Source: Bacteroidia bacterium (lineage in GTDB: Bacteria > Bacteroidota > Bacteroidia > Bacteroidales > GWA2-32-17). From it: 64,000 nucleotides of DNA. Both the position numbers and the translations under genes were made by a program. Of this stretch, positions 4,888 through 15,950 are shown piece after piece (the stretch's first letter is position 1; each line of letters begins with the position of its first letter). The notes under the pieces are model-generated. The model had not been told where the DNA came from. It was given only the letters and a program-made list of their open reading frames with translations, and did no database searches. The stretch lies in contig JACREQ010000071.1 of NCBI GenBank assembly GCA_016218155.1, positions 1-64,000 on the forward strand, read 5' to 3'.

Positions 4888-5008
4888 ATTGATTTTTATT
4901 TAGTTAATATTTTTTTCAGTTTTAAATTCTTATATAAGACAAATTAAGGTATAATTTCGTTGCCCAACAAGAAAAATATTTTTCATTTTTCTTTAAAACG
5001 AATAAAAT

Positions 5009-7573
5009 TTATTTTTTACAATACAAGGATAACGCTTCTTTTGCCTGATTATTTCCATACAATGACGCATCAGTAAAGTACCTGCAAGCTAAATCAGCCT
5101 TTCCCTCCTGCCTGTATAACTCTCCTAACCAATAATTTACCTCTCCATTTCTGGGATCAAAAGAAATCACTGAATCAAATACTTTTTTTGCTTTTTGAAA
5201 ATTCTTTTTTTGCATCCAAATCCAACCAAGATTTAGATATGAATTTACAAGTGACTTATCGAGAGAAATAGCTTTTTCAAACTCAGCTATAGCTTTCTCA
5301 TAATCTTTGATTTGCATATGGTACCATGCAATATTTTGCCACGACAAAGCACTGTTAGGAAAATATTTTAAAGCAGACTCAAAATCAAATCCTGCATTTT
5401 TAATTTCTTTTAAATAAAACCATGCAAATGCCCTGTTTGTAATAGCTGTTTGGTGTTCAGGCACTTTACTTAAAACTTTTGAGAAATCACTTACCGCATT
5501 TTTATAATCGCCAATAGATGAATATGTCCAACCTCTATTAAGGTAAACCTCTAAAAGCAAACTGTCGTTTTCTATAGCTTTTTTATAATCTTCAATTGCG
5601 CCTGCAATGTCCCCTGAAGAAAATTTAAGATAACCGCGATTATTGTAAGCTAATGCATATTGCGGATTTATTTCAAGTGACTTATTAAAATCATTTAATG
5701 CTTCAATTTTTTTGTTTTGTTTTGCATATACCCATCCTCTATTGTTTAAAGCATCCGAATAATAAGAATCTATTTTAATTGCTTTTTCGAAATTAATTAA
5801 AGCTTTCTCAAAATCATTTTTCTGAAAATAAAACATTCCTAAATTATTATAAGTGGAAGCAACCAAACTATCTGTCTTTATTGCAAAACAATAGTAATAA
5901 AAAGCAAGACTATCGTTACCTGATTTATGATATATTTCGCCCATATTAGTATATGCCAGGGCCTTATCCTTATTACTCCTACTTAAAGTTATAACTTTAT
6001 TAAAATCACAAATTGCAGAATCAGATTTTCCAATCATAAAATAAATCATAGCTCGATTAAAATAGGCACCAGGATCCAACGAATCAAGGGTTATAGATTT
6101 ATTTAAATTTTTAAGTGCTTCAGCAGTTTTTTTTTCGTTTAAATAAACTCCTCCTAGATTGTTATAAGCAAAAGAGATCTTGGCATTTTTCTTTATAACA
6201 TCGTTAAAAAGAGTTACAGAATTCTTCCACACCATTGACCTACTATATGTTATAATCGACAGCAATACAAGAATAATTACAAAAGAGGAATAATATATTT
6301 TTTTAAAATTTTTATTGCGCAGAATTAAATTGACCAGATAATGTGAAACTACAATAAACAATCCCAAATATGCCAGATAGCTATAACGATCTGCAACTAC
6401 CAACCTCCCCTCAATTGGGATTATATGCAATACAATTGAAATATTAACAACAAAAAAGAACCATCCAAAAAACACTAAATTTGGAATTACTTTTCTTTTT
6501 ATAATAAAATAAACTGACAAAGCTATAACAAATATCAAAATTATTAATGTATAATAATAATCATTAGGGAATCCTACATTATTAATATTTTCGGGATAAG
6601 GATGTACAGCATTTTGTGAGATTGGCAAAAACACATTTTTTAAATAAAACCATAAGGCAAAACCGGCTAGAATTAATCTATCAAATATTGAGAATACATT
6701 TCTTGAGTCAGGAATTTTTGACCATAACCCAGATTTATTATTTATAAAATAATATAATAAGTATGCTAACAAAAGTAAAGCAACAGTTACAATTGAGAAT
6801 ATCTTTATTTTCTTACTAATTTGAATTAGTTTAATTTTATTTTTTAAGATAAAATACGAAACAAATAACAATAATATCAAAACAACTGTAAGCTTGCTAA
6901 AAATAAAGAAAACAAATAAAAATATTAAGACTTTTTCAAATATTAATGAAACGGTTATTTTTCTGATAAAAAACAGATCAAATAAGATTAAAGTTATAGG
7001 TATGAGCAATCCCTGAATTTTGGAAAACGATGCTAACAATGCAAATAAAACAACTAGTAATATATATTTATTTTTATAATCACTTTTTAAATATTTAATA
7101 TAAAACAGATAGCTACATATTGAAAACAAAGTAAAAAGCAAATCCTTAATTTCAGAAATCCAGGCAACAGATTCGACACGCATCGGGTGTAAAGCAAATA
7201 ATAATGCTACTAAACCATAGATGTATAAATTATCTGTCAGTTTTTTACATAAAATAAAAACCAATACTACATTTAATAGATGCAACAAAATACTAAAACA
7301 ATGAAATGGAACAGGGTTATTTCCCCATATATTATATATTACTGAAAATGAACTAAGAGTCAATAAAGTAAATCTTTCAAAATTAATATTATGTTTAACA
7401 CTTTCTAAATTTAGGTTTTTAACAAAAATATTATCTGTAATTTGTTTATCATCATCCCATTTAATAAAATCGTGATTTATTATTTGAGAATAAGAAAATA
7501 AACATGCTAACAAAATTATTATTAGCATTATCCTTTCTAATGAAAAAAAACTTTTAATATTAATTATCTTCAT
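5009..7573 (-). CDS. TMTC-like multi-spanning membrane protein with C-terminal TPR repeats
   Basis: The protein has 854 residues. Residues 1 to about 440 form a dozen or so membrane helices. The first loop carries the acidic WDDD motif (residues 39-42), and HPMRVESVAWISE follows at about 129. Both are marks of the GT-C-fold membrane glycosyltransferase group that includes bacterial and eukaryotic TMTC proteins. Residues from about 465 to the end are roughly eleven tetratricopeptide repeats (xAYNNLGxxY and xALxNFNKAI patterns). In the family the GT-C part transfers a sugar from a lipid carrier to an extracytoplasmic acceptor and the TPRs bind protein. Whether this bacterial member is a glycosyltransferase is unproven. 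It stands alone, divergent from mtgA. Confidence 0.8.
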   Translation of the reverse strand: MKIINIKSFFSLERIMLIIILLACLFSYSQIINHDFIKWDDDKQITDNIFVKNLNLESVKHNINFERFTLLTLSSFSVIYNIWGNNPVPFHCFSILLHLLNVVLVFILCKKLTDNLYIYGLVALLFALHPMRVESVAWISEIKDLLFTLFSICSYLFYIKYLKSDYKNKYILLVVLFALLASFSKIQGLLIPITLILFDLFFIRKITVSLIFEKVLIFLFVFFIFSKLTVVLILLLFVSYFILKNKIKLIQISKKIKIFSIVTVALLLLAYLLYYFINNKSGLWSKIPDSRNVFSIFDRLILAGFALWFYLKNVFLPISQNAVHPYPENINNVGFPNDYYYTLIILIFVIALSVYFIIKRKVIPNLVFFGWFFFVVNISIVLHIIPIEGRLVVADRYSYLAYLGLFIVVSHYLVNLILRNKNFKKIYYSSFVIILVLLSIITYSRSMVWKNSVTLFNDVIKKNAKISFAYNNLGGVYLNEKKTAEALKNLNKSITLDSLDPGAYFNRAMIYFMIGKSDSAICDFNKVITLSRSNKDKALAYTNMGEIYHKSGNDSLAFYYYCFAIKTDSLVASTYNNLGMFYFQKNDFEKALINFEKAIKIDSYYSDALNNRGWVYAKQNKKIEALNDFNKSLEINPQYALAYNNRGYLKFSSGDIAGAIEDYKKAIENDSLLLEVYLNRGWTYSSIGDYKNAVSDFSKVLSKVPEHQTAITNRAFAWFYLKEIKNAGFDFESALKYFPNSALSWQNIAWYHMQIKDYEKAIAEFEKAISLDKSLVNSYLNLGWIWMQKKNFQKAKKVFDSVISFDPRNGEVNYWLGELYRQEGKADLACRYFTDASLYGNNQAKEALSLYCKK

Positions 7574-8416: not shown

Positions 8417-9502
8417 CTAAGCTTTTATAGTTTCTACAAAATATTTCTTTTTAAACCAGAATGCTACATTTACAAGGGCAATCATAACAGGAACTTCAAC
8501 TAATGGACCTATTACTGCTGTAAAAGCCTCGCCTGAGTTCATTCCAAAAATTGCAATAGCAACTGCAATTGCCAGTTCAAAATTATTACTTGCAGCAGTA
8601 AAAGAAAGTGTAACAGTTTGTCCATAAGTTGCCCCTACTTTTTTACTCATAAAGAAAGAACCAACAAACATTATTACAAAATAAATTAATAATGGAATTG
8701 CTATTAAAACAACGTCCAAAGGAATACTAATTATTAGCTCTCCTTTTAGCGAAAACATTACAAATATTGTAAATAAAAGCGCAATAAGAGTTAAAGGGCT
8801 TATTTTGGGAATAAACTTAGTGTGATACCATTCTTTGCTTTTTACTCGAATTAAAATAAAACGGGTTAAAAATCCTGCTATAAAAGGTATTCCTAAATAA
8901 ATAAATACACTTTCTGCAATTTGTGCAATAGTTATTTTACTAACTGCATCACTTGTTGGAACACCAAATAATCCGGGTAATATTGCAATAAAAACATAGG
9001 CATACAACGAAAAAAACAATACCTGAAAAATACTGTTAAAAGCTACTAATCCTGCAGCATATTGCGTATCACCTTTTGCAAGATCGTTCCAGACAATTAC
9101 CATTGCAATGCAGCGTGCAAGACCTATCATGATAATTCCATACATGTATGGAAGATTTGCATTATTTTCTCCGGGAAACAATTTGAAAAATATTATTGCC
9201 AATGCAAACATTAATACCGGACCAATAATCCAGTTTTGAATTAACGACAACCCTAAAATTTTATAGTTTTTAAAAACATCGCCCAATTCCTCATATTTTA
9301 CTTTTGCAAGTGGTGGATACATCATTAAAATTAATCCGATTGCGATTGGAATATTTGTTGTACTTTCAGGTGATGATTTTAACGATTCCCAAAATGTAAC
9401 AATATGCGGGAAAAAATATCCACTTATTATACCAACCCCCATCGCTAAAAAAATCCACAGTGTTAAATAACGATCTAAGAATTTCAATCTTGCTTTCATC
9501 AC
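8417..9502 (-). CDS. acr3: Arsenite efflux permease, ACR3 family
   Basis: This inner-membrane carrier of 361 residues extrudes arsenite (and probably antimonite) using the proton gradient. About ten membrane helices are visible. The ACR3 hallmark [12 protein letters not shown] contains the conserved cysteine (Cys131) needed for transport, and the [16 protein letters not shown] helix carries the conserved Asn/Glu. It is the last gene of the arsR operon, 90 bp after arsC, with an imperfect inverted repeat in the gap. Two consecutive Met codons make the exact start uncertain by one residue. Confidence 0.95.
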
Positions 9503-9523
9503 TTAGAATTTAATTTTTTTTTC

Positions 9524-9574
9524 TGATACGAATTTCACTAATTTATAATCAAATAATTCGTGCAATTAGTGTCA
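9524..9574. repeat. Imperfect inverted repeat between arsC and acr3
   Basis: A 20 bp arm (9524-9543) and a second arm (9555-9574) match at about 16 of 20 positions when one is reverse-complemented, and both contain CACTAATT-like words. It could be a dispersed intergenic repeat. It has no clear U-tract, so termination is not supported. Confidence 0.5.
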
Positions 9575-9592
9575 TTTTTAATAAATAATTAG

Positions 9593-10009
9593 TTAACAAA
9601 TTTCTTCATTATAAAACTTTGTTAGTCTTTCTTTTATCTGATCTCTTATTTTTCTGTAAACAATAAGCTTTTCTTCATCTGTACCTGTTGCATCTGCAGG
9701 ATCTTCGAATCCAATATGAACTCGCTCTCTAACATTACCGATAAAAACAGGGCAAACTTCTTTTGCATTATCGCATACTGTTATTACAAAATCAAACGGT
9801 TGTGAAATAAAATTATCAACAAGTTTTGGATAATGTTGTGATATATTTATCCCAATTTCTTCCATTACTTTTACAGCATATTTATTTACTTGTTTTTCGG
9901 GACGAGTACCTGCAGAAAATACTTCATTTTTCGGGTTAAGATTTCTCATAATCCCTTCAGCCATCTGACTACGACAGCTATTACCTGTGCAAAGAATCAG
10001 AATTCTCAT
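9593..10009 (-). CDS. arsC: Arsenate reductase, low-molecular-weight phosphatase fold
   Basis: This cytoplasmic enzyme of 138 residues reduces arsenate to arsenite, which Acr3 then exports. The P-loop CX5R is CTGNSCR, with nucleophile Cys7 and Arg13. The two further redox cysteines of the thioredoxin-coupled type are Cys79 and Cys86 in VCDNAKEVCP, and the acid loop is FEDPAD (about residues 101-106). All catalytic residues are present and the length is normal. It lies 14 bp after the DUF1573 gene in the arsR operon. Confidence 0.95.
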   Translation of the reverse strand: MRILILCTGNSCRSQMAEGIMRNLNPKNEVFSAGTRPEKQVNKYAVKVMEEIGINISQHYPKLVDNFISQPFDFVITVCDNAKEVCPVFIGNVRERVHIGFEDPADATGTDEEKLIVYRKIRDQIKERLTKFYNEEIC

Positions 10010-10023
10010 ATTATTGTTTATTA

Positions 10024-10455
10024 TTATTTCTCGTAAACTTCTCCCTGAATTGTAAGTTCAATTTTATTTGTTACAGCATTTGAACTAACAGTAACTGTTT
10101 TACTAAAAACACCAATTTCTTTGGTATCATAAACTACTTTTATTATTGCTGATTTTCCGGGCATTATTGGTTCTTTTGGCCAGTTTGGAGTTGTACAATC
10201 ACATGAAGGTGTAACATTATTCAGAATTAATGGACTTTTACCTGTATTTTTAAAAACAAAATCGACTTTTGCTTCTGCATTTTTTAGTAACGAGCCAAAA
10301 TTATGTACTGTTTTAGTAAATGAAATCTCAGGAGCGTTTGGATTTGATTTTACATATGTGTTATCAATCTGTCCATAAACAAAAACAAATGACATTATTA
10401 ACCACATTAACACAAAAGATGATTTGAAGATTTGATTGTATTTCATAAGATTCAA
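10024..10455 (-). CDS. DUF1573 domain secreted protein
   Basis: The 143-residue protein has a signal peptide (about residues 1-29, ending VYGQ). One DUF1573 Ig-like domain follows (FTKTVHNFGSLLKNAEAKVDFVFKNTG, then the characteristic PSCDCTTPNWP with a CxC pair). This family is common in Bacteroidota, and its biochemical role is unknown. Here it lies 11 bp after the ABC ATPase and 14 bp before arsC, inside an ArsR-led operon. The CxC could bind a soft metal or metalloid, but that is an inference from context. Confidence 0.85.
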   Translation of the reverse strand: MNLMKYNQIFKSSFVLMWLIMSFVFVYGQIDNTYVKSNPNAPEISFTKTVHNFGSLLKNAEAKVDFVFKNTGKSPLILNNVTPSCDCTTPNWPKEPIMPGKSAIIKVVYDTKEIGVFSKTVTVSSNAVTNKIELTIQGEVYEK

Positions 10456-10466
10456 TAATTAAAATA

Positions 10467-11135
10467 TTAATTTACTAATTCACCATTGTTCAATTTAATC
10501 TTTTTATGTCCATATTCGGCAGCAGTAGGACTATGAGTAACCATTATTACTGTAATTCCTTTTTCGGTATTTATCTTTTTAAGAAAATCAAGAATTTCGA
10601 GTGATAAGGCTGGGTCTAAGTTTCCTGTTGGCTCATCGGCAAGTATAACAGAAGGATTATGCACTAAAGCTCTTGCAATAGCTACACGTTGTTGCTGACC
10701 AATAGATAACTGTCGAGGCAAATGATTTAAACGGTTTTTTAACCCAACAAATTCGAGAACTTCAGTGGCTCTTTTAATTTGTTCAGTTTTACTCACCCTA
10801 AGTAAACTTAACGGAATCATTACATTCTGAACAGTTGTCAAATATGGAATTAAAGCAAAATTCTGCATAATAAAACCAATATGATTTTTTCTGATTTTTG
10901 CTAATGCACTGTCTGAAATATTATCTATTCTTTTATCGTCGAAAAATATTTTACCAGATGATGGTTTTATTAAACCAAAAAGACTTAACAATAATGTACT
11001 TTTTCCAGAGCCGGAAGGACCAGTAATAGTAACAAAATCGGATTTATTAATTACTAAATTAATATTATTTATTGCATTTACCTTACCATCTTTGGTAGTA
11101 TATTCTTTAGCTAATTTTTCTATTGTTAGTTTCAT
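10467..11135 (-). CDS. ABC transporter ATPase, MacB/LolD type
   Basis: The 222-residue ATPase shows Walker A GPSGSGKST (39-47), the Q-loop at Gln91, the signature SIGQQQR (144-150), Walker B VILADEP (163-169) and an H-loop in VTHSP. The sequence is closest in pattern to MacB/LolD-type ATPases that power FtsX-fold permeases. Its partner is the permease gene 2 bp upstream. Its place in the arsR operon suggests a role in the envelope response to thiol-reactive metalloids rather than lipoprotein sorting; the substrate is unknown. Confidence 0.92.
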   Translation of the reverse strand: MKLTIEKLAKEYTTKDGKVNAINNINLVINKSDFVTITGPSGSGKSTLLLSLFGLIKPSSGKIFFDDKRIDNISDSALAKIRKNHIGFIMQNFALIPYLTTVQNVMIPLSLLRVSKTEQIKRATEVLEFVGLKNRLNHLPRQLSIGQQQRVAIARALVHNPSVILADEPTGNLDPALSLEILDFLKKINTEKGITVIMVTHSPTAAEYGHKKIKLNNGELVN

Positions 11136-11137
11136 CT

Positions 11138-12358
11138 TTATTCCTCCTGTAAATTAGTGTGAGGATCAATTTTTGACGCAAGGTAAGCCGGAATAACAGT
11201 GCCGGTTAAGGCAATAACAATTGACAACAATAATGACCATAATAAATACATATAAAGAGGCTGAACAGACATACCAGCTATATATGGACCTAAAAGCATA
11301 CCTGCAATTGTACCTATAACAAAACCCAGAACACCGCCGACAATTCCTAAGAAAACAGCTTTAAATAGGAATAATTTATATATCATACCTTTTGAGGCAC
11401 CCATCATTCTTAGAACTCCAATCTCTTTATGACGCTCATTTACATTTGCCCAGATATAATTTCCCATTGAAATTCCGCCAACAAAAAATATAATAATTAG
11501 AAAAATTAAAGTTACCTTATCCATAAGTCTGTTGGTTTCAATCTGAGTTGACACTATCTGATTAATAGTTGTAATACGGGTATCTGGTAAAATATTTCGC
11601 AATTTTCCAAGTAAACCTTCAGATATGGCATTACAACATCCCATAATTTCAATAGTACTAATCTGATCAGGAGCATTTAATAATTCCTGAACAGTGGTTA
11701 TATGAGCAAATACCCTATCATCATCAACTGTGCCAGTTTCGGGTAATACTTTTACAACCTTAAATTCCTGACTGTTTATTGTAATTTTTGAATTCTCAAC
11801 AAGCTTTAGTTTTTTTGAAATTTGTGATCCCAACAAGCAATCATAACGATTTAGTGTATCAATTACTTTACGCATTAATTTTTCATCTTCAAATCCCTGC
11901 GATTTGTTTTCTGTATTAGATGGAGCACATGCAGTTTCTAATTCTTTCCCAACCAATCCTGAATTTTGCCATAATGGCTTAGAAGCTATTTCACTTTTCG
12001 GTAAAATACCAGTAAGAACAATACTTATTTCGCCAACCTTTACTCTTCTTGTTAATTTTGGCGACATATTATCAACACCAGAAATACTTGAAGTTAAAAT
12101 TCTTTCAACATACTCCATTGGTATAGTTGGAGCATCAATATCTGAAGTATAATAATCATCGATACTTGTTCCTTGAGGTAATACTAAAATATTAGCCCCA
12201 AGGTTATCAAGTTTTTTTGCTACATTTTGTTTTGATACAACCGAGATACTTTGAATTGCCACAATTACAGCAATTCCAAGTGTTATTGCTAATATTCCGC
12301 TTATCAATTGTGATTTTCGTTTCCACAATTCAAGCCAAATAATTTTAAATGTATTCAT
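11138..12358 (-). CDS. ABC transporter permease, FtsX/MacB type
   Basis: The 406-residue permease has the MacB topology: one N-terminal membrane helix (about 15-40), a periplasmic domain of about 240 residues, and three C-terminal helices (about 280-305, 325-355 and 370-395) with the coupling segment EIGVLRMMGASK. MacB-type pumps use mechanotransmission, moving periplasmic substrates rather than carrying them across the membrane. The periplasmic part contains a CC pair (IEIMGCC). It is paired with the ATPase 2 bp downstream and lies 14 bp after the 242-residue secreted protein gene. Confidence 0.9.
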   Translation of the reverse strand: MNTFKIIWLELWKRKSQLISGILAITLGIAVIVAIQSISVVSKQNVAKKLDNLGANILVLPQGTSIDDYYTSDIDAPTIPMEYVERILTSSISGVDNMSPKLTRRVKVGEISIVLTGILPKSEIASKPLWQNSGLVGKELETACAPSNTENKSQGFEDEKLMRKVIDTLNRYDCLLGSQISKKLKLVENSKITINSQEFKVVKVLPETGTVDDDRVFAHITTVQELLNAPDQISTIEIMGCCNAISEGLLGKLRNILPDTRITTINQIVSTQIETNRLMDKVTLIFLIIIFFVGGISMGNYIWANVNERHKEIGVLRMMGASKGMIYKLFLFKAVFLGIVGGVLGFVIGTIAGMLLGPYIAGMSVQPLYMYLLWSLLLSIVIALTGTVIPAYLASKIDPHTNLQEE

Positions 12359-12372
12359 TGTTAAAAACTAAT

Positions 12373-13101
12373 TTAACATTTTTTTCCGCTGCCACAGCTA
12401 CCTGGAGCACAACCTCCAACTCTTTTGTTAACTGTTTTAACTAAATCTTCAGACTTTGTTAAGCTATCCATTTTTCCGGTAAATTGCCCTTTACCATTAA
12501 AAATAACAACCGTAGTCTTTGTTAAATCAGGTTTAAGTAAATCAACAAAGTTCGCCTCTTCTTTACTTTCAACATCAACAAATACAACAGTTGCCTTATT
12601 TCCTAAGCTTGTTAATGCTGTTTTACATTCAGCCTGAATTGCTGCTTTGTCTTTTGCATTTTTCTTTCCACAGATAATTAATGCAGCTTTACCATTTTCA
12701 AAACCCAACAAAACTTCAGCCTGTGTTTTTGATGGTAATGTTGAAATAATTTTTTCTATTGACGCATCCTCAGATGTTAAAGCACCTGTAACTACACCAT
12801 TTGACGCAACAACTAATATCAATGGCAATTGCGCACCTGCAATTCTGTATTTTGCAACCAAATCGGCATTTGCTTTTTCATCTCTATCTAATTTTAAAAC
12901 AGTATTATTTTTAACCTTTTTATTTGCACTCTGAGATAACTGAACTAAATAATCAGTTCCTTTTGCTAATTTATCGGTAACAATTAAAAAAATAGATTTA
13001 CCACTTTTTTGAGCCTTTTGAATATCAGCACTTACTCCTTGAGCAAAAATGTTTGTTATTACAAACAATGAACAAATAATAATAATTGTAATCTTTTTCA
13101 T
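12373..13101 (-). CDS. Secreted thioredoxin-fold-like protein with Cys/Gly-rich metal-binding tail
   Basis: The 242-residue protein has a signal peptide (to about residue 20). Two similar alpha/beta halves follow (KAQKSGKSIFLIVTDK... and KAALIICGKKNAKDK...), which look like thioredoxin folds without any CxxC. It ends in a Gly/Cys tail, GGCAPGSCGSGKKC, with three cysteines. It is clearly related to the product of 13562-14317. It follows arsR by 18 bp, so it is probably made on metalloid exposure. An arsenite or metal scavenger or chaperone in the periplasm is plausible but not demonstrated. No named family is recognised. Confidence 0.75.
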   Translation of the reverse strand: MKKITIIIICSLFVITNIFAQGVSADIQKAQKSGKSIFLIVTDKLAKGTDYLVQLSQSANKKVKNNTVLKLDRDEKANADLVAKYRIAGAQLPLILVVASNGVVTGALTSEDASIEKIISTLPSKTQAEVLLGFENGKAALIICGKKNAKDKAAIQAECKTALTSLGNKATVVFVDVESKEEANFVDLLKPDLTKTTVVIFNGKGQFTGKMDSLTKSEDLVKTVNKRVGGCAPGSCGSGKKC

Positions 13102-13119
13102 TTTATAATTTATTTATGT

Positions 13120-13452
13120 TTAACATTTACATTTAAAATCAGATATAGAACTTTTAAAAAATGTATCATATTTATCCTTTATTTCTTTAAGCTTTTTAAA
13201 ATCCAGACAATAATGAATTTTAAGTCCGTCAATTGTACCTTTAATAATTCCTGCCTCTTTTAAAATTTTTAAATGTTGAGACACTGTAGTTCTTGAAATT
13301 GGTAAATCATCTGAAATATTTCCTGTTTTTATTTCCTTTTTTTTCTTTAAAAGTTTAATTATTGAAATTCTTGCAGGATGCGAAAAAACTTTACTAATTA
13401 ATGCAAGTTCTTTTTCAACTTCATCAAACTCTTCTGCTTTATTGTTTGTCAT
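13120..13452 (-). CDS. arsR: ArsR-family metalloregulator
   Basis: A winged-helix repressor of 110 residues. The HTH is ISRTTVSQHLKILKEAGIIKG (about 53-73), with the wing DGLKIHYCLD. The classical ELCVCDL site of E. coli-type ArsR is absent. Instead there is a C-terminal CKC (residues 108 and 110) and a Cys in the wing strand, suggesting a different metalloid site, as in other ArsR subgroups. It is the first gene of an operon running to acr3. A perfect palindrome upstream (13463-13488) is its likely operator. Repression relieved by As(III)/Sb(III) is the family mode. Confidence 0.92.
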   Translation of the reverse strand: MTNNKAEEFDEVEKELALISKVFSHPARISIIKLLKKKKEIKTGNISDDLPISRTTVSQHLKILKEAGIIKGTIDGLKIHYCLDFKKLKEIKDKYDTFFKSSISDFKCKC

Positions 13453-13462
13453 GAATTAATGT

Positions 13463-13488
13463 TTAATGTCGTAAACGTACGACATTAA
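13463..13488. promoter_or_regulatory. ArsR operator in front of arsR
   Basis: A perfect inverted repeat of 11 bp arms, TTAATGTCGTA and TACGACATTAA, with a 4 bp spacer, lies 11 bp before the arsR ATG. On the minus strand it contains TACGTTTA, one base from a -7 box, so bound repressor would cover the promoter. Confidence 0.85.
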
Positions 13489-13561
13489 TTTAAAATAAAA
13501 AAATATATAATTAGGCTTATTATATATTTAAGAATTATTAATATTTAAAAACTACCTATTA

Positions 13562-14317
13562 TTATTTAGCGTGTTTATTTGAAGTACCTACACCATTTGT
13601 GTATGTATCAGAACAGGATTTCTGGTTTTCAGATTTTTTAATTGCACTAAGTATATCCATATATTCAAATGGATACTCGAATTTCTTAGCTAATTTACCT
13701 TTGCTATTAAATACATGTACAACAGGTCCTACAGCTTTCAAATTAGGTGCAAGTTGTTTAATAAATTCATCTTCAGATTTATCATCCAAATCAATTTCAA
13801 TATTTATTGAATTTCCATTTAATACCTTAGAAGCTTTATTACATTCTTCAATCACTGCAGTTCTGTTCTTCATTGTATCTTTATACATAATAACAAAGAC
13901 TGCTTTATTTTCGCTAAATGCTAAAAGAGCTTCAGCATGTTTTTTTGTAGGAATTGCTTTTAAAAGAGCATCAATAGTTGCCATGCTTTTTGTATAAAAA
14001 CCACAAAGCGCGCCATTATTTGCTATTACAATTATTATTGGTGCACCCCATTCTTTAATGTTATATTTATTTACTAATTCTGTATTTGCTGAATCAGTTT
14101 TATCCATTTCAATAATAGCAGATTTTGAATATAATTTTTGTGTTTTTAATGCTATCTCTTTTGATTCAGAAATATCTGTTTTACCATCTCCAACAATTAA
14201 AAAAACTACTTTTCCTTTTTTATTTTGTTTTGCTATTTCAGATTTCACCTGTCCAAAACTAAAATTTGCTACTATAAACAGTATAAAAATTAAATAGTAA
14301 CGAATTTTTATTTTCAT
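13562..14317 (-). CDS. Secreted thioredoxin-fold-like protein, paralogue of 12373-13101
   Basis: This 251-residue secreted protein has the same two-half layout as the 242-residue product encoded after arsR (KKGKVVFLIVGDGK..., then ENKAVFVIMYKD...AVIEECNKA). It shares motifs such as LVxKYxI, GAPIIIVIANNG and AEALLAF. It lacks the GGCAPGSC tail, keeping only a single Cys near the end, and has no CxxC. It is transcribed separately just upstream of arsR, behind its own ArsR-type operator and -7 box (14341-14372), so it is probably part of the same regulon. Function unknown. Confidence 0.75.
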   Translation of the reverse strand: MKIKIRYYLIFILFIVANFSFGQVKSEIAKQNKKGKVVFLIVGDGKTDISESKEIALKTQKLYSKSAIIEMDKTDSANTELVNKYNIKEWGAPIIIVIANNGALCGFYTKSMATIDALLKAIPTKKHAEALLAFSENKAVFVIMYKDTMKNRTAVIEECNKASKVLNGNSINIEIDLDDKSEDEFIKQLAPNLKAVGPVVHVFNSKGKLAKKFEYPFEYMDILSAIKKSENQKSCSDTYTNGVGTSNKHAK

Positions 14318-14340: not shown

Positions 14341-14372
14341 CAAAGATACTAACGTAAATATACGACATTAGT
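14341..14372 (-). promoter_or_regulatory. ArsR-type operator plus -7 box upstream of 13562-14317
   Basis: Positions 14348-14372 contain the half-site TACGACATTA, identical to the arsR operator, and a degenerate partner arm (ACTAACGTA). The minus-strand -7 box TATCTTTG (14341-14348) abuts it, 23 bp before the start codon. Confidence 0.7.
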
Positions 14373-14454: not shown

Positions 14455-14790
14455 CTAATTCAAAGATTTAAGATTTTTTAATGCATCGGGAACAAATTGC
14501 AGAACATTTTTAAGTATTGCACAATCCTCAAGTTTATCGCATTCTCCACATGTTTTAAAGTTTTTAGAATCTGCACAATTTCTAATTTCACATTTTTCGC
14601 AATGATTAAATTTAACTCCTTCTTCTCGACACCCTGTACAATTTATCATTTCTGAGGTAATATCGGGATTATGCTGAGATCTCCATGTTTCAGCAGTTTT
14701 AATGCGCAATTCATTATCATTTGTTATAGTAGCTTTTCTTGCATCGCAAGAAGCACAATTAATTCCACAACACGAAATAAGTTTTTCCAT
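14455..14790 (-). CDS. DUF3795 cysteine-rich protein
   Basis: This cytoplasmic protein of 111 residues is dense in cysteines: CCGINCASCDARKA at the start, then CTGCREEG, CEKCEIRNC and CGECDKLEDC. The pattern is that of DUF3795, a family with presumed zinc or Fe-S binding and no known reaction. It lies 29 bp after the TfoX-like gene on the same strand and may share a transcript with it. Confidence 0.85.
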   Translation of the reverse strand: MEKLISCCGINCASCDARKATITNDNELRIKTAETWRSQHNPDITSEMINCTGCREEGVKFNHCEKCEIRNCADSKNFKTCGECDKLEDCAILKNVLQFVPDALKNLKSLN

Positions 14791-15212: not shown

Positions 15213-15950
15213 TTATTTATTTAACAATTTTCTGGTGTGGGTTAATAAATTAACCCCTCCGTATTGTCCGTGACCTGGAATAACAATTTTAGCATTTGGA
15301 AATTTACTTATTATTCTATCTATTGTTAAAGGGTAAGCAACTAAATCTCCATCTATAACATTACCCAAATCTTTTGAATTTATACTTTTAATCATGCACC
15401 CTGCAAATAAAATTGTTTCGGAAGGTATCCAGACTATAATGTTATCCATAGAATGCGCAGCACCTAAATAATAACAATGAATACTTTTATTACCCAAACT
15501 TATTTCAATAGAATCCTTAAATCCATGATTCGGAACAGGTAAATTTCTGGACTTTGCAATATCAATGGTCAATTGATTTGCAAACGATTCTATATTTTGA
15601 GAATGAATATAATTAAGTCCTCCTATACAGTCGTTATGCCAGTGATTTGGTATAAAACCTACAACTTTTAGATTCATCGAATCGGTTATCCATTCAAATA
15701 AAACTTTTGTCAATGAATCAGTCCATGACGAATTAAAAACAAAAGCCTCATTACCGTTAATAAATATTAAACCGTTTGCCGGAGTTCTTCCGTAATCTGG
15801 CAAATCAAGGTATGAAATATGCAAATACGCAGACTCAGATAATTTAATTAAATTAATATCCTTACAAACCTTAATAGTTTTATTATCAGTTTGCGAGAAC
15901 CCGGTATATTGAATAAATACAATTAATAATAAAATCAGAAGTTTTTTCAT
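15213..15950 (-). CDS. Subclass B1 metallo-beta-lactamase, CcrA-like
   Basis: A secreted zinc hydrolase of 245 residues with a signal peptide (cleavage near FSQ, residue 20). All six B1 zinc ligands are present: His103, His105, Asp107 (HWHND), His166 (GAAHSMDN), Cys185 (LFAGCMIKS) and His227 (PGHGQYGG). The segment from ANQLTIDIAKSRNLPVPNHGF to YYLG is strikingly CcrA-like. Expected activity is opening of penicillin, cephalosporin and carbapenem rings in the periplasm. No insertion sequence or integron gene is adjacent, so it looks like a resident chromosomal gene. Activity level cannot be judged from sequence. Confidence 0.9.
   Translation of the reverse strand: MKKLLILLLIVFIQYTGFSQTDNKTIKVCKDINLIKLSESAYLHISYLDLPDYGRTPANGLIFINGNEAFVFNSSWTDSLTKVLFEWITDSMNLKVVGFIPNHWHNDCIGGLNYIHSQNIESFANQLTIDIAKSRNLPVPNHGFKDSIEISLGNKSIHCYYLGAAHSMDNIIVWIPSETILFAGCMIKSINSKDLGNVIDGDLVAYPLTIDRIISKFPNAKIVIPGHGQYGGVNLLTHTRKLLNK

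Follow-up and report, generated by a model that had tools for sequence, protein, structure and literature searches.

The well-known proteins of bacterial arsenic resistance work in the cytoplasm or the inner membrane. To our knowledge, the fate of arsenite in the Gram-negative periplasm after its export by Acr3 has been little studied. The systems closest to the locus described here are the classical arsR-arsC-acr3 operon and several ABC systems, namely MacAB-TolC, LolCDE and the Fet-type clusters (fetMP-fetABCDEF in Campylobacter). In the parts of the two Fet reports drawn on here (PMC10783030, PMC6083913), these clusters are described as having two FtsX-class permeases, a separate ATPase and a periplasmic thioredoxin-fold protein, and the function and substrate of their FetBCD ABC unit are termed unclear or unknown by the investigators themselves. 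Our literature search, judged by titles and abstract openings and with most subscription journals outside its coverage, showed, among the papers listed, none describing a cassette of the kind reported below, and a term search of a survey of ars genes (PMC6205960) found neither 'MacB' nor 'ABC transporter' in its text.

Organization of the ars operon

The operon lies within the window (the whole 64,000-nucleotide stretch of DNA that was analysed), and all of its genes are on the minus strand, in the order arsR, Cys-tail gene, permease, ATPase, DUF1573, arsC and acr3. The repressor gene arsR (13120-13452; PF01022, NF033788) is followed by the gene for a Cys-tailed secreted protein (12373-13101), characterized by an AlphaFold2 model, fold matches and alignment, and by the genes for a type VII-class ABC permease (11138-12358; PF12704 and PF02687) and an ABC ATPase of the LolD/MacB class (10467-11135; PF00005 above cut-off). 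The top NCBIfam matches of the ATPase, DarD, LolD and FtsE, were all below their cut-offs. Next come the gene for an accessory secreted DUF1573 protein (10024-10455; PF07610), with its ATG start probably at 10446, and arsC (9593-10009), encoding a thioredoxin-type arsenate reductase of the low-molecular-weight phosphatase fold (PF01451 above cut-off; TIGR02691 at E 4.9e-39 and 133.5 bits, below the cut-off of 174.3). The last gene, acr3 (8417-9502), encodes an arsenite efflux permease (TIGR00832, 431 bits against a cut-off of 282.8); its listed start is GTG, with in-frame ATGs directly after. From arsR through arsC, neighbouring ORFs as listed are separated by 2-18 bp; arsC and acr3 are 90 bp apart.

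With an ArsR-type repressor gene and an arsenite efflux permease gene in one operon, the locus is an ars operon, and it shares with the classical form the presence of ArsR, a thioredoxin-type ArsC and Acr3. It differs in that the genes for the Cys-tailed protein, permease, ATPase and DUF1573 protein are inserted between arsR and arsC. An earlier note on this DNA had given this gene set and order and had judged the operon not to be a standard one; every gene that it named is present, and the four inserted genes agree with its judgement.

A putative ArsR operator

The cysteines of ArsR are found only at positions 82, 108 and 110 (a YC and a C-terminal CxC), and Cys82 and the CxC are the likely metalloid site. 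Just upstream of arsR, sequence scans and conservation in relatives point to the palindrome ATGTCGTACGTTTACGACAT (13466-13485), perfect apart from its four middle bases, as the putative ArsR operator of the operon. When relatives were scanned with a consensus taken from the source locus and with first-order resampling of each stretch as the control, 17 of the 18 loci with arsR just upstream (the source included) scored 12-16 of 16 consensus bases. Three of these were weak (L032, L037 and L041; 12 of 16, control fraction 0.01-0.02), and the other arsR-bearing locus, L006, had no match (9 of 16). For the seven loci without arsR directly upstream, a site of 12 of 16 was found before the Cys-tail gene of L045 and no match at the other six; the scan of L047 covered 32 bases only.

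With up to three mismatches, the pattern was found 3 times in the window against 1.36 expected, and 18 of 100 shuffles gave a count as high, which is not above chance; with up to two mismatches, the whole genome held 7 places versus 21 for the reversed control. Genome-wide, the only places with zero or one mismatch were C71:13467 and C29:25681, both just upstream of arsR genes, and it is from this position and from the conservation in relatives that the operator draws its support. A weaker copy with two mismatches (14350-14367), not above chance by the genome-wide count, is listed for its position upstream of a paralogue of the Cys-tail gene.

Linkage and distribution of the module in relatives

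The survey of relatives that the earlier note had proposed was carried out, and the linkage was found to be conserved. All 26 of 26 loci have the Cys-tail gene next to the permease gene, and 25 of the 26 also carry acr3 on the strand and contig of the module; the remaining locus is a 3.7 kb contig whose end falls inside the permease gene. This association is beyond chance. At L006 (where the contig ends), L046 and L048, a Cys-tail homologue was found but no permease in the stretch examined. Of 295 genomes sampled from the host's order, 18 had the permease, the source genome included, as did 5 of 123 genomes from another order of the same phylum; the Cys-tail protein occurred in 20 of the 295, including all 18 with the permease. 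Among the permease-bearing genomes, 17 of 18 carry acr3, compared with 131 of 277 others (Fisher p 5e-5, relatedness not corrected for). On the other hand, 131 of the 148 acr3-bearing genomes of the order are without the module, which counts against a role in arsenical handling.

Known arsenical genes, namely ArsG, ArsF, ArsE-like, ArsP and ArsM, often neighbour the module in relatives, but none of these genes is inside the source operon. By clustering, with one representative scanned, DsbD-like ArsG genes are present at 12 of 24 loci, and 9 of the 24 have a gene for a secreted beta-barrel-like protein (c10) inside or close to the cassette. In the plasmid collection, the Cys-tail protein had no match and the permease a single distant one at E <= 1e-10. 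The neighbours of this nearest plasmid relative, on Pelobacter propionicus pPRO1, are a metal-sensitive regulator, a heavy-metal P-type ATPase and an HMA protein with a Cys-rich tail, a setting that would suit a module serving another soft metal or metalloid (Sb, Cu or Hg) and sharing the ars operon for co-regulation. We consider this very improbable, given that acr3 shares strand and contig with the module at 25 of 26 loci and that most loci having arsR upstream carry the ArsR-type operator. Cys-rich proteins bind many soft metals, and thus As, Sb, Cu and Hg are not distinguishable from the sequence, which also weighs against arsenical handling in particular.

The Cys-tailed thioredoxin-fold protein

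The earlier description of a secreted two-domain Cys-tailed protein was confirmed by a signal peptide, two predicted thioredoxin folds and a disordered Cys-rich C-terminal tail, GGCAPGSCGSGKKC. Its AlphaFold2 model has a mean pLDDT of 86.6, with residues 230-242 below 50. The predicted model matches the thioredoxin fold, with the top structural rows at Z 11.7 (rmsd 4.0 over 104 residues and 2.5 over 97 residues), and the structural comparison went no further than thioredoxin-like folds, without singling out a family. Among the Foldseek matches listed, rows over both folds were of the archaeal PDO, AhpF, PDI, ERp27, ERp44, QSOX and calsequestrin types, with low TM-scores by query (0.27-0.39 in the best 50 rows). 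PF13848 was matched below its cut-off only, and the score against the ArsF family (NF040494; E 0.008, 16.6 bits against a cut-off of 60) places the protein outside that family. There is no CxxC active site in the source protein. In the tail, C231 is kept in 23 of 25 rows and C242 in 22 of 25; one row counted as tail-less, L033 (G441), appears frameshifted where the Cys-tail gene ends and the permease gene starts.

The permease and its invariant cysteines

The permease comprises TM1, a predicted periplasmic core domain and FtsX-like TM2-4, and the PF12704 core domain ahead of the FtsX domain assigns it to the type VII ABC permeases (MacB/LolC/FtsX class). Four cysteines, Cys144, Cys174, Cys241 and Cys242, lie between TM1 and TM2 in the predicted outer part, and each is kept in 25 of 25 copies spanning its column. 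Copies shorter than 340 aa were left out of this alignment; the short G440 copy (289 aa) also carries all four. The source genome has seven other permease matches, paralogues of its own; five of them were read over their whole length, whereas for L074 and L075 another or a partial frame was picked, so that the cysteine check covered the five.

The permease had previously been called MacB-type. It does have MacB_PCD and FtsX domains, and its best PDB sequence matches are MacB chains. However, MacB joins ATPase and permease in one chain, whereas these are separate ORFs here (10467-11135 and 11138-12358); the permease scores 55.5 bits against the MacB cut-off of 966 and carries four invariant cysteines, and the operon holds no MacA-like adaptor or TolC gene. 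MacB membership was rejected on the unfused chain, the absent adaptor and the low score. With neither an adaptor nor an outer-membrane channel encoded in the operon, nothing in the window points to export across the outer membrane; their absence also counts against an arsenical-handling arm. LolCDE is of the same ABC class, but the permease gene here is single and unpaired, with 45 bits against the lolCE cut-off of 362. The domain make-up shared with LolC and MacB, together with c10 in or near the cassette at some loci, could suit an envelope system of Lol or MacB type, merely arsenic-induced and handling other cargo (a lipoprotein, a damaged protein, or an organic or thiolated arsenical). We regard such a system as quite improbable, since the one permease is unfused, no adaptor is encoded in the operon, the scores are far under both cut-offs and the invariant cysteines would be left unexplained.

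Among the relatives found, the nearest appear, by sequence, to be permeases that adjoin DUF2318 genes (Fet-type) rather than MacB. The homology to them is full-length (23-27% identity, 103-138 bits), and the tree, which excluded two near-copies (L082 and L083), grouped them with moderate support (86/56). This comparison was made with permeases beside DUF2318 genes, not with the Campylobacter FetB/FetC sequences. The source operon differs from Fet-type clusters in having one permease instead of two, and in having no FTR1 permease, P19, DUF2318 protein or CxxC thioredoxin among the eight genes scanned (8417-14317); its thioredoxin folds are without CxxC and end in a Cys tail. In both, the cysteine motif occupies the same position within the core domain, but it is an invariant CxxC in the permeases beside DUF2318 genes (12 of 12 rows, three being near-copies) and a CC with two extra cysteines in the source permease.

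This CxxC, which would suit redox chemistry, counts against arsenical handling and raises the alternative of a thiol redox relay that the ABC unit would power or gate, with arsenic itself not carried. The permease and the thioredoxin-fold protein would supply the periplasm with reducing equivalents or a small thiol, whereby envelope thiols would be kept reduced or arsenic-damaged proteins repaired. The relay has in its favor that the CxxC relatives adjoin FtrD-like (DUF2318) proteins, that DsbD-like ArsG genes accompany the module at half of the 24 loci, and that the Campylobacter authors, in the part of PMC10783030 considered here, propose FetBCD as a source of reducing power. However, the source Cys-tail protein lacks a CxxC, the source operon has no DsbD-like gene, and the CC and two further cysteines that replace CxxC in the ars permeases would suit a trigonal metalloid site. 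We consider the relay unlikely.

A possible periplasmic arm of arsenical handling

Trivalent arsenicals are classically bound by vicinal thiols and three-cysteine sites. Binding of this kind is known from ArsR cases (PMC11868830). The reading that we tentatively prefer, at a probability somewhat short of even, is that the module is an ArsR-controlled periplasmic arm added to the arsC-acr3 operon, which would handle trivalent arsenicals by thiolate binding and be worked by ATP. When trivalent arsenic enters the cell, ArsR would leave its palindromic operator, ArsC would make As(III), and Acr3 would move it into the periplasm. There, the flexible tail of the Cys-tailed protein may capture trivalent arsenicals and present them to the permease core domain, where the vicinal Cys241-Cys242 could form a three-thiolate site with Cys144 and Cys174. 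ATP hydrolysis would then move the core domain by mechanotransmission, the mode of other type VII ABC systems, so that the arsenical would be released or passed on; as a proposed result, periplasmic thiols would stay free and re-entry would be limited. The structure predicted for the permease is of poor quality (mean pLDDT 57.3, pTM 0.43), which weighs against this proposal. Of the envelope arm suggested by the earlier note, what stands is an envelope module that has thiol-rich parts and is conserved and linked to ArsR, whereas the MacB-type pump is not supported.

A more specific proposal is that the type VII ABC unit spends ATP on loading, unloading or transferring trivalent arsenic, bound by thiolates, between the Cys-tailed carrier and a next acceptor, with no passage through the inner membrane, and thus represents an undescribed class of periplasm-acting metalloid machine. 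This strikes us as rather doubtful; if true, such an ATP-driven machine and its Fet-type CxxC cousins would define a wider ABC family performing periplasmic thiol and metal chemistry. In any case, a periplasmic thiol module that is conserved and linked to ArsR would offer a concrete candidate for the periplasmic step after Acr3, and a family with one shared place for its cysteine motif but differing pathways would make the question of FetBCD function testable by mutation.

Accessory and neighboring genes

Only 6 of 26 loci have the DUF1573 gene inside the cassette, and it was therefore rejected as a core part of the module. The CxC noted earlier in its product is indeed present (SCDCT) but generic, being common to the four other DUF1573 stretches (three proteins) of the source genome, all of which read SCGCT. 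Upstream of the operon, also on the minus strand, lies a gene that the earlier note had missed (13562-14317), a paralogue of the Cys-tail gene with 30% identity and a cysteine-poor tail.

Conservation of the Cys-tail, permease and ATPase module in ars loci

The operon is read on the minus strand from 14317 down to 8417, beginning with a paralogue of the Cys-tail gene (13562-14317, from ORF reading) and arsR (13120-13452, an ArsR-type HTH family match). These are followed by the gene of the secreted Cys-tailed protein (12373-13101), whose match to PF13848 thioredoxin is weak and below the cut-off, the ABC permease (11138-12358, MacB_PCD and FtsX), the ATPase (10467-11135, ABC_tran) and a DUF1573 gene (10024-10455, PF07610). 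The order closes with arsC (9593-10009, above the PF01451 cut-off and under that of TIGR02691) and acr3 (8417-9502, above the TIGR00832 cut-off). The extra genes that the earlier note had placed between arsR and arsC-acr3 are all present, and family scans back the names given, with only the weak match for the Cys-tail protein. Upstream of the paralogue gene, 14455-14790 encodes a small Cys-rich protein (MEKLISCCGINCASCDARKA...), which we take to be DUF3795-like, and an ORF at 15213-15950, presumably of metallo-beta-lactamase-fold-like type, carries a signal peptide and an HWHNDCIGG motif.

Linkage in relatives, which had been set as a test, was found throughout the 26 loci collected (23 genomes and three named records; in G753 the gene is split over two contigs). 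At every locus the Cys-tail gene immediately precedes the permease gene; in 25 cases the two lie within 44 bp of each other or overlap by no more than that, and in the remaining case they stand 260 bp apart. The ATPase gene follows at 24 loci, the other two reaching a contig end (the G753 ATPase was found on its second contig). acr3 lies on the same strand at 25 loci, the sole exception being a 3.7 kb contig of G440 that stops inside the permease. In addition, arsC is present at 21/26 loci and an arsR homologue at 20/26 (same strand, within 12 kb). DUF1573 matches occur at seven, six of them in the cassette and the seventh 4.4 kb off as part of a longer protein. The scan of named genome contigs had given seven loci, from assemblies labelled Bacteroidetes, Bacteroidia, Bacteroidales or bacterium, three duplicating contigs of sampled genomes.

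With the window's genome counted, homologues of the Cys-tail protein (E <= 1e-5) were found in 20 of 295 sampled genomes of the order and in 2 of 395 across the phylum. The permease (E <= 1e-30) was found in 18 genomes of the same order sample, all falling within those 20, and in 5/123 genomes of a second order of the phylum. As the weakest match in the order sample, a partial copy, still reached 6e-117, the permease constitutes a sharp subfamily. Two genomes of the order carry a Cys-tail homologue with no permease match: in G577 it is near acr3 and arsC, and in G521 it is beside genes of the ArsG, ArsP and ArsF clusters. acr3 itself was detected in 148/295 genomes: 17 of the 18 permease-bearing genomes have it, versus 131 of the 277 others (Fisher p 5e-5, kinship ignored). 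The module is therefore an addition, absent from most genomes of the order that have acr3.

Cysteines of the Cys-tail protein and the permease

The AlphaFold2 model of the Cys-tail protein (mean pLDDT 86.6) comprises two thioredoxin folds, both aligning with thioredoxins in structure comparison (top rows Z 11.7), and a disordered tail beginning at residue 230; the N-terminal helix of the model fits a predicted signal peptide. No CxxC occurs in the window protein. The tail is variable in sequence while its cysteines are kept, the C231 column in 23/25 rows and the C242 column in 22/25, with a second cysteine adjoining, after C231, in 13/25. The upstream paralogue has one cysteine close to its end.

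In the permease alignment of 20 rows, only four columns hold cysteine in at least three rows, and each of these (144, 174, 241 and 242, window numbering) does so in all 20. With six pieces added, each is cysteine in 25/25 spanning rows, and the short G440 copy has all four. They are located between TM1 and the FtsX domain, a part that is periplasmic in the type VII ABC class, which places them in the predicted periplasmic part. The permease has seven further matches in the window's genome; five of them, FtsX-type permeases examined whole, have 0 to 3 cysteines each and no vicinal pair.

Relationship of the permease to Fet-type permeases and proposed function

A plasmid search with the permease returned one distant match, an FtsX-like permease of Pelobacter propionicus pPRO1, whose neighbours are a DUF2318 protein, an HMA protein and a metal P-type ATPase. 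With this permease as query (E <= 1e-25), 13/395 phylum genomes matched: two are of the window's own type (its genome and G160), and the other eleven form a separate, Fet-type family (40-46% identity). By eye, all eleven loci have an upstream gene with a DUF2318-type C-terminus and an ATPase gene downstream, and three have a YHS gene; scans confirmed FtrD-like (DUF2318) proteins at two of them and on pPRO1, and YHS at two. The same gene content is described for Campylobacter FetA and FetBCD in excerpts of PMC10783030 and PMC6083913. These Bacteroidota permeases are accompanied by a zinc-ribbon plus FtrD-like protein, and the short stretches around them (about 4 kb) showed no apparent FTR1 gene. 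The pPRO1 HMA protein (5000-5464 of its stretch) has a Cys-rich tail, GCCGGKNGGCGGNK, like those of the Cys-tail proteins, to which its HMA domain is unrelated; such tails beside related permeases are perhaps convergent.

The earlier note had called the pump MacB-type. Its MacB_PCD and FtsX domains are shared with MacB, and MacB ranks first in a sequence search of solved structures; however, full-length matches of the window permease to ten Fet-type rows reach 103-138 bits, those to five paralogues of its own genome no more than 81 bits, and a tree joins the two families with moderate support (86/56, long branches flagged). Thus, among the Bacteroidota and pPRO1 permeases compared, the pump looks nearer by descent to the metal-linked family than to MacB. 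The Fet-type permeases differ in having, in 12/12 rows (three of these near-copies), a CxxC at the place of the CC, its first cysteine aligned with Cys242, whereas the ars type contains some 30 inserted residues, which bring an extra cysteine (144), and has another at 174.

In the likeliest reading, Acr3 feeds a thiol arm in the periplasm: the substrate would be captured on the tail of the Cys-tail protein, handed over to the cysteine site of the permease and released by a step driven by ATP. A redox relay is the main competing reading, because the Fet-type cousins carry CxxC and the Fet authors (PMC10783030) consider reducing power. Any export across the outer membrane would need partners encoded elsewhere. 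Among the papers listed in searches of an open-access library, none describes such a cassette in its title or the opening of its abstract. A Bacteroides vulgatus ars operon reportedly contains three genes of unknown function.

Neighbouring genes and regulation

Neighbours were clustered at 24 loci, with one or two members per cluster scanned and the remainder named by cluster. ArsG (DsbD-like) lies near the cassette at 12 loci, ArsP_1 permeases and rhodanese at 11 each, ArsM at 8 (by cluster) and DGC proteins at 4, and secreted ArsF-like and small ArsE-like thioredoxins also occur. A secreted beta-barrel-like protein (cluster c10; PF13557 above cut-off in the one scanned) is in or near the cassette at 9/24 loci, with homologues at two other places in the window's genome, and a small secreted protein (c11) at 8/24. 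Such c10 and c11 proteins recur at L008 (6245-7549), L006, L038, L039, L042, L044, L046 and others, and several begin with QCC[SA]AGNP past the signal peptide.

A palindrome, ATGTCGTACGTTTACGACAT, lies directly upstream of the window arsR. At 18 loci, the window's among them, arsR directly precedes the Cys-tail gene; in the upstream stretch, 17 of these match the putative operator consensus at 12 to 16 of 16 bases (control fractions 0.02 or less), and L006 has no match. Among seven loci without arsR there, one, L045, has a site (12 of 16), before the Cys-tail gene itself. The layout is similar to the footprint of another Bacteroidota ArsR, TCGTA-N4-TGCGA, in an excerpt of PMC11868830. The window ArsR contains three cysteines (82, 108 and 110). 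In relatives with arsR at most 67 bp from the Cys-tail gene, YC is present in 15/15 and a C-terminal CxC in 12/15. This putative sensing site is unlike the As(III) sites listed in PMC11868830, where two C-terminal cysteines of the ArsR studied were dispensable. Elsewhere in the window's genome, near 25681 of contig C29 (1501-2906 of stretch L091), a second ArsR gene with the tail KKFNKCC has a one-mismatch operator copy upstream; behind it, by eye, come genes for a membrane protein rich in cysteines and for a DsbD/CcdA-like protein with a CC motif, possibly forming another metalloid operon.
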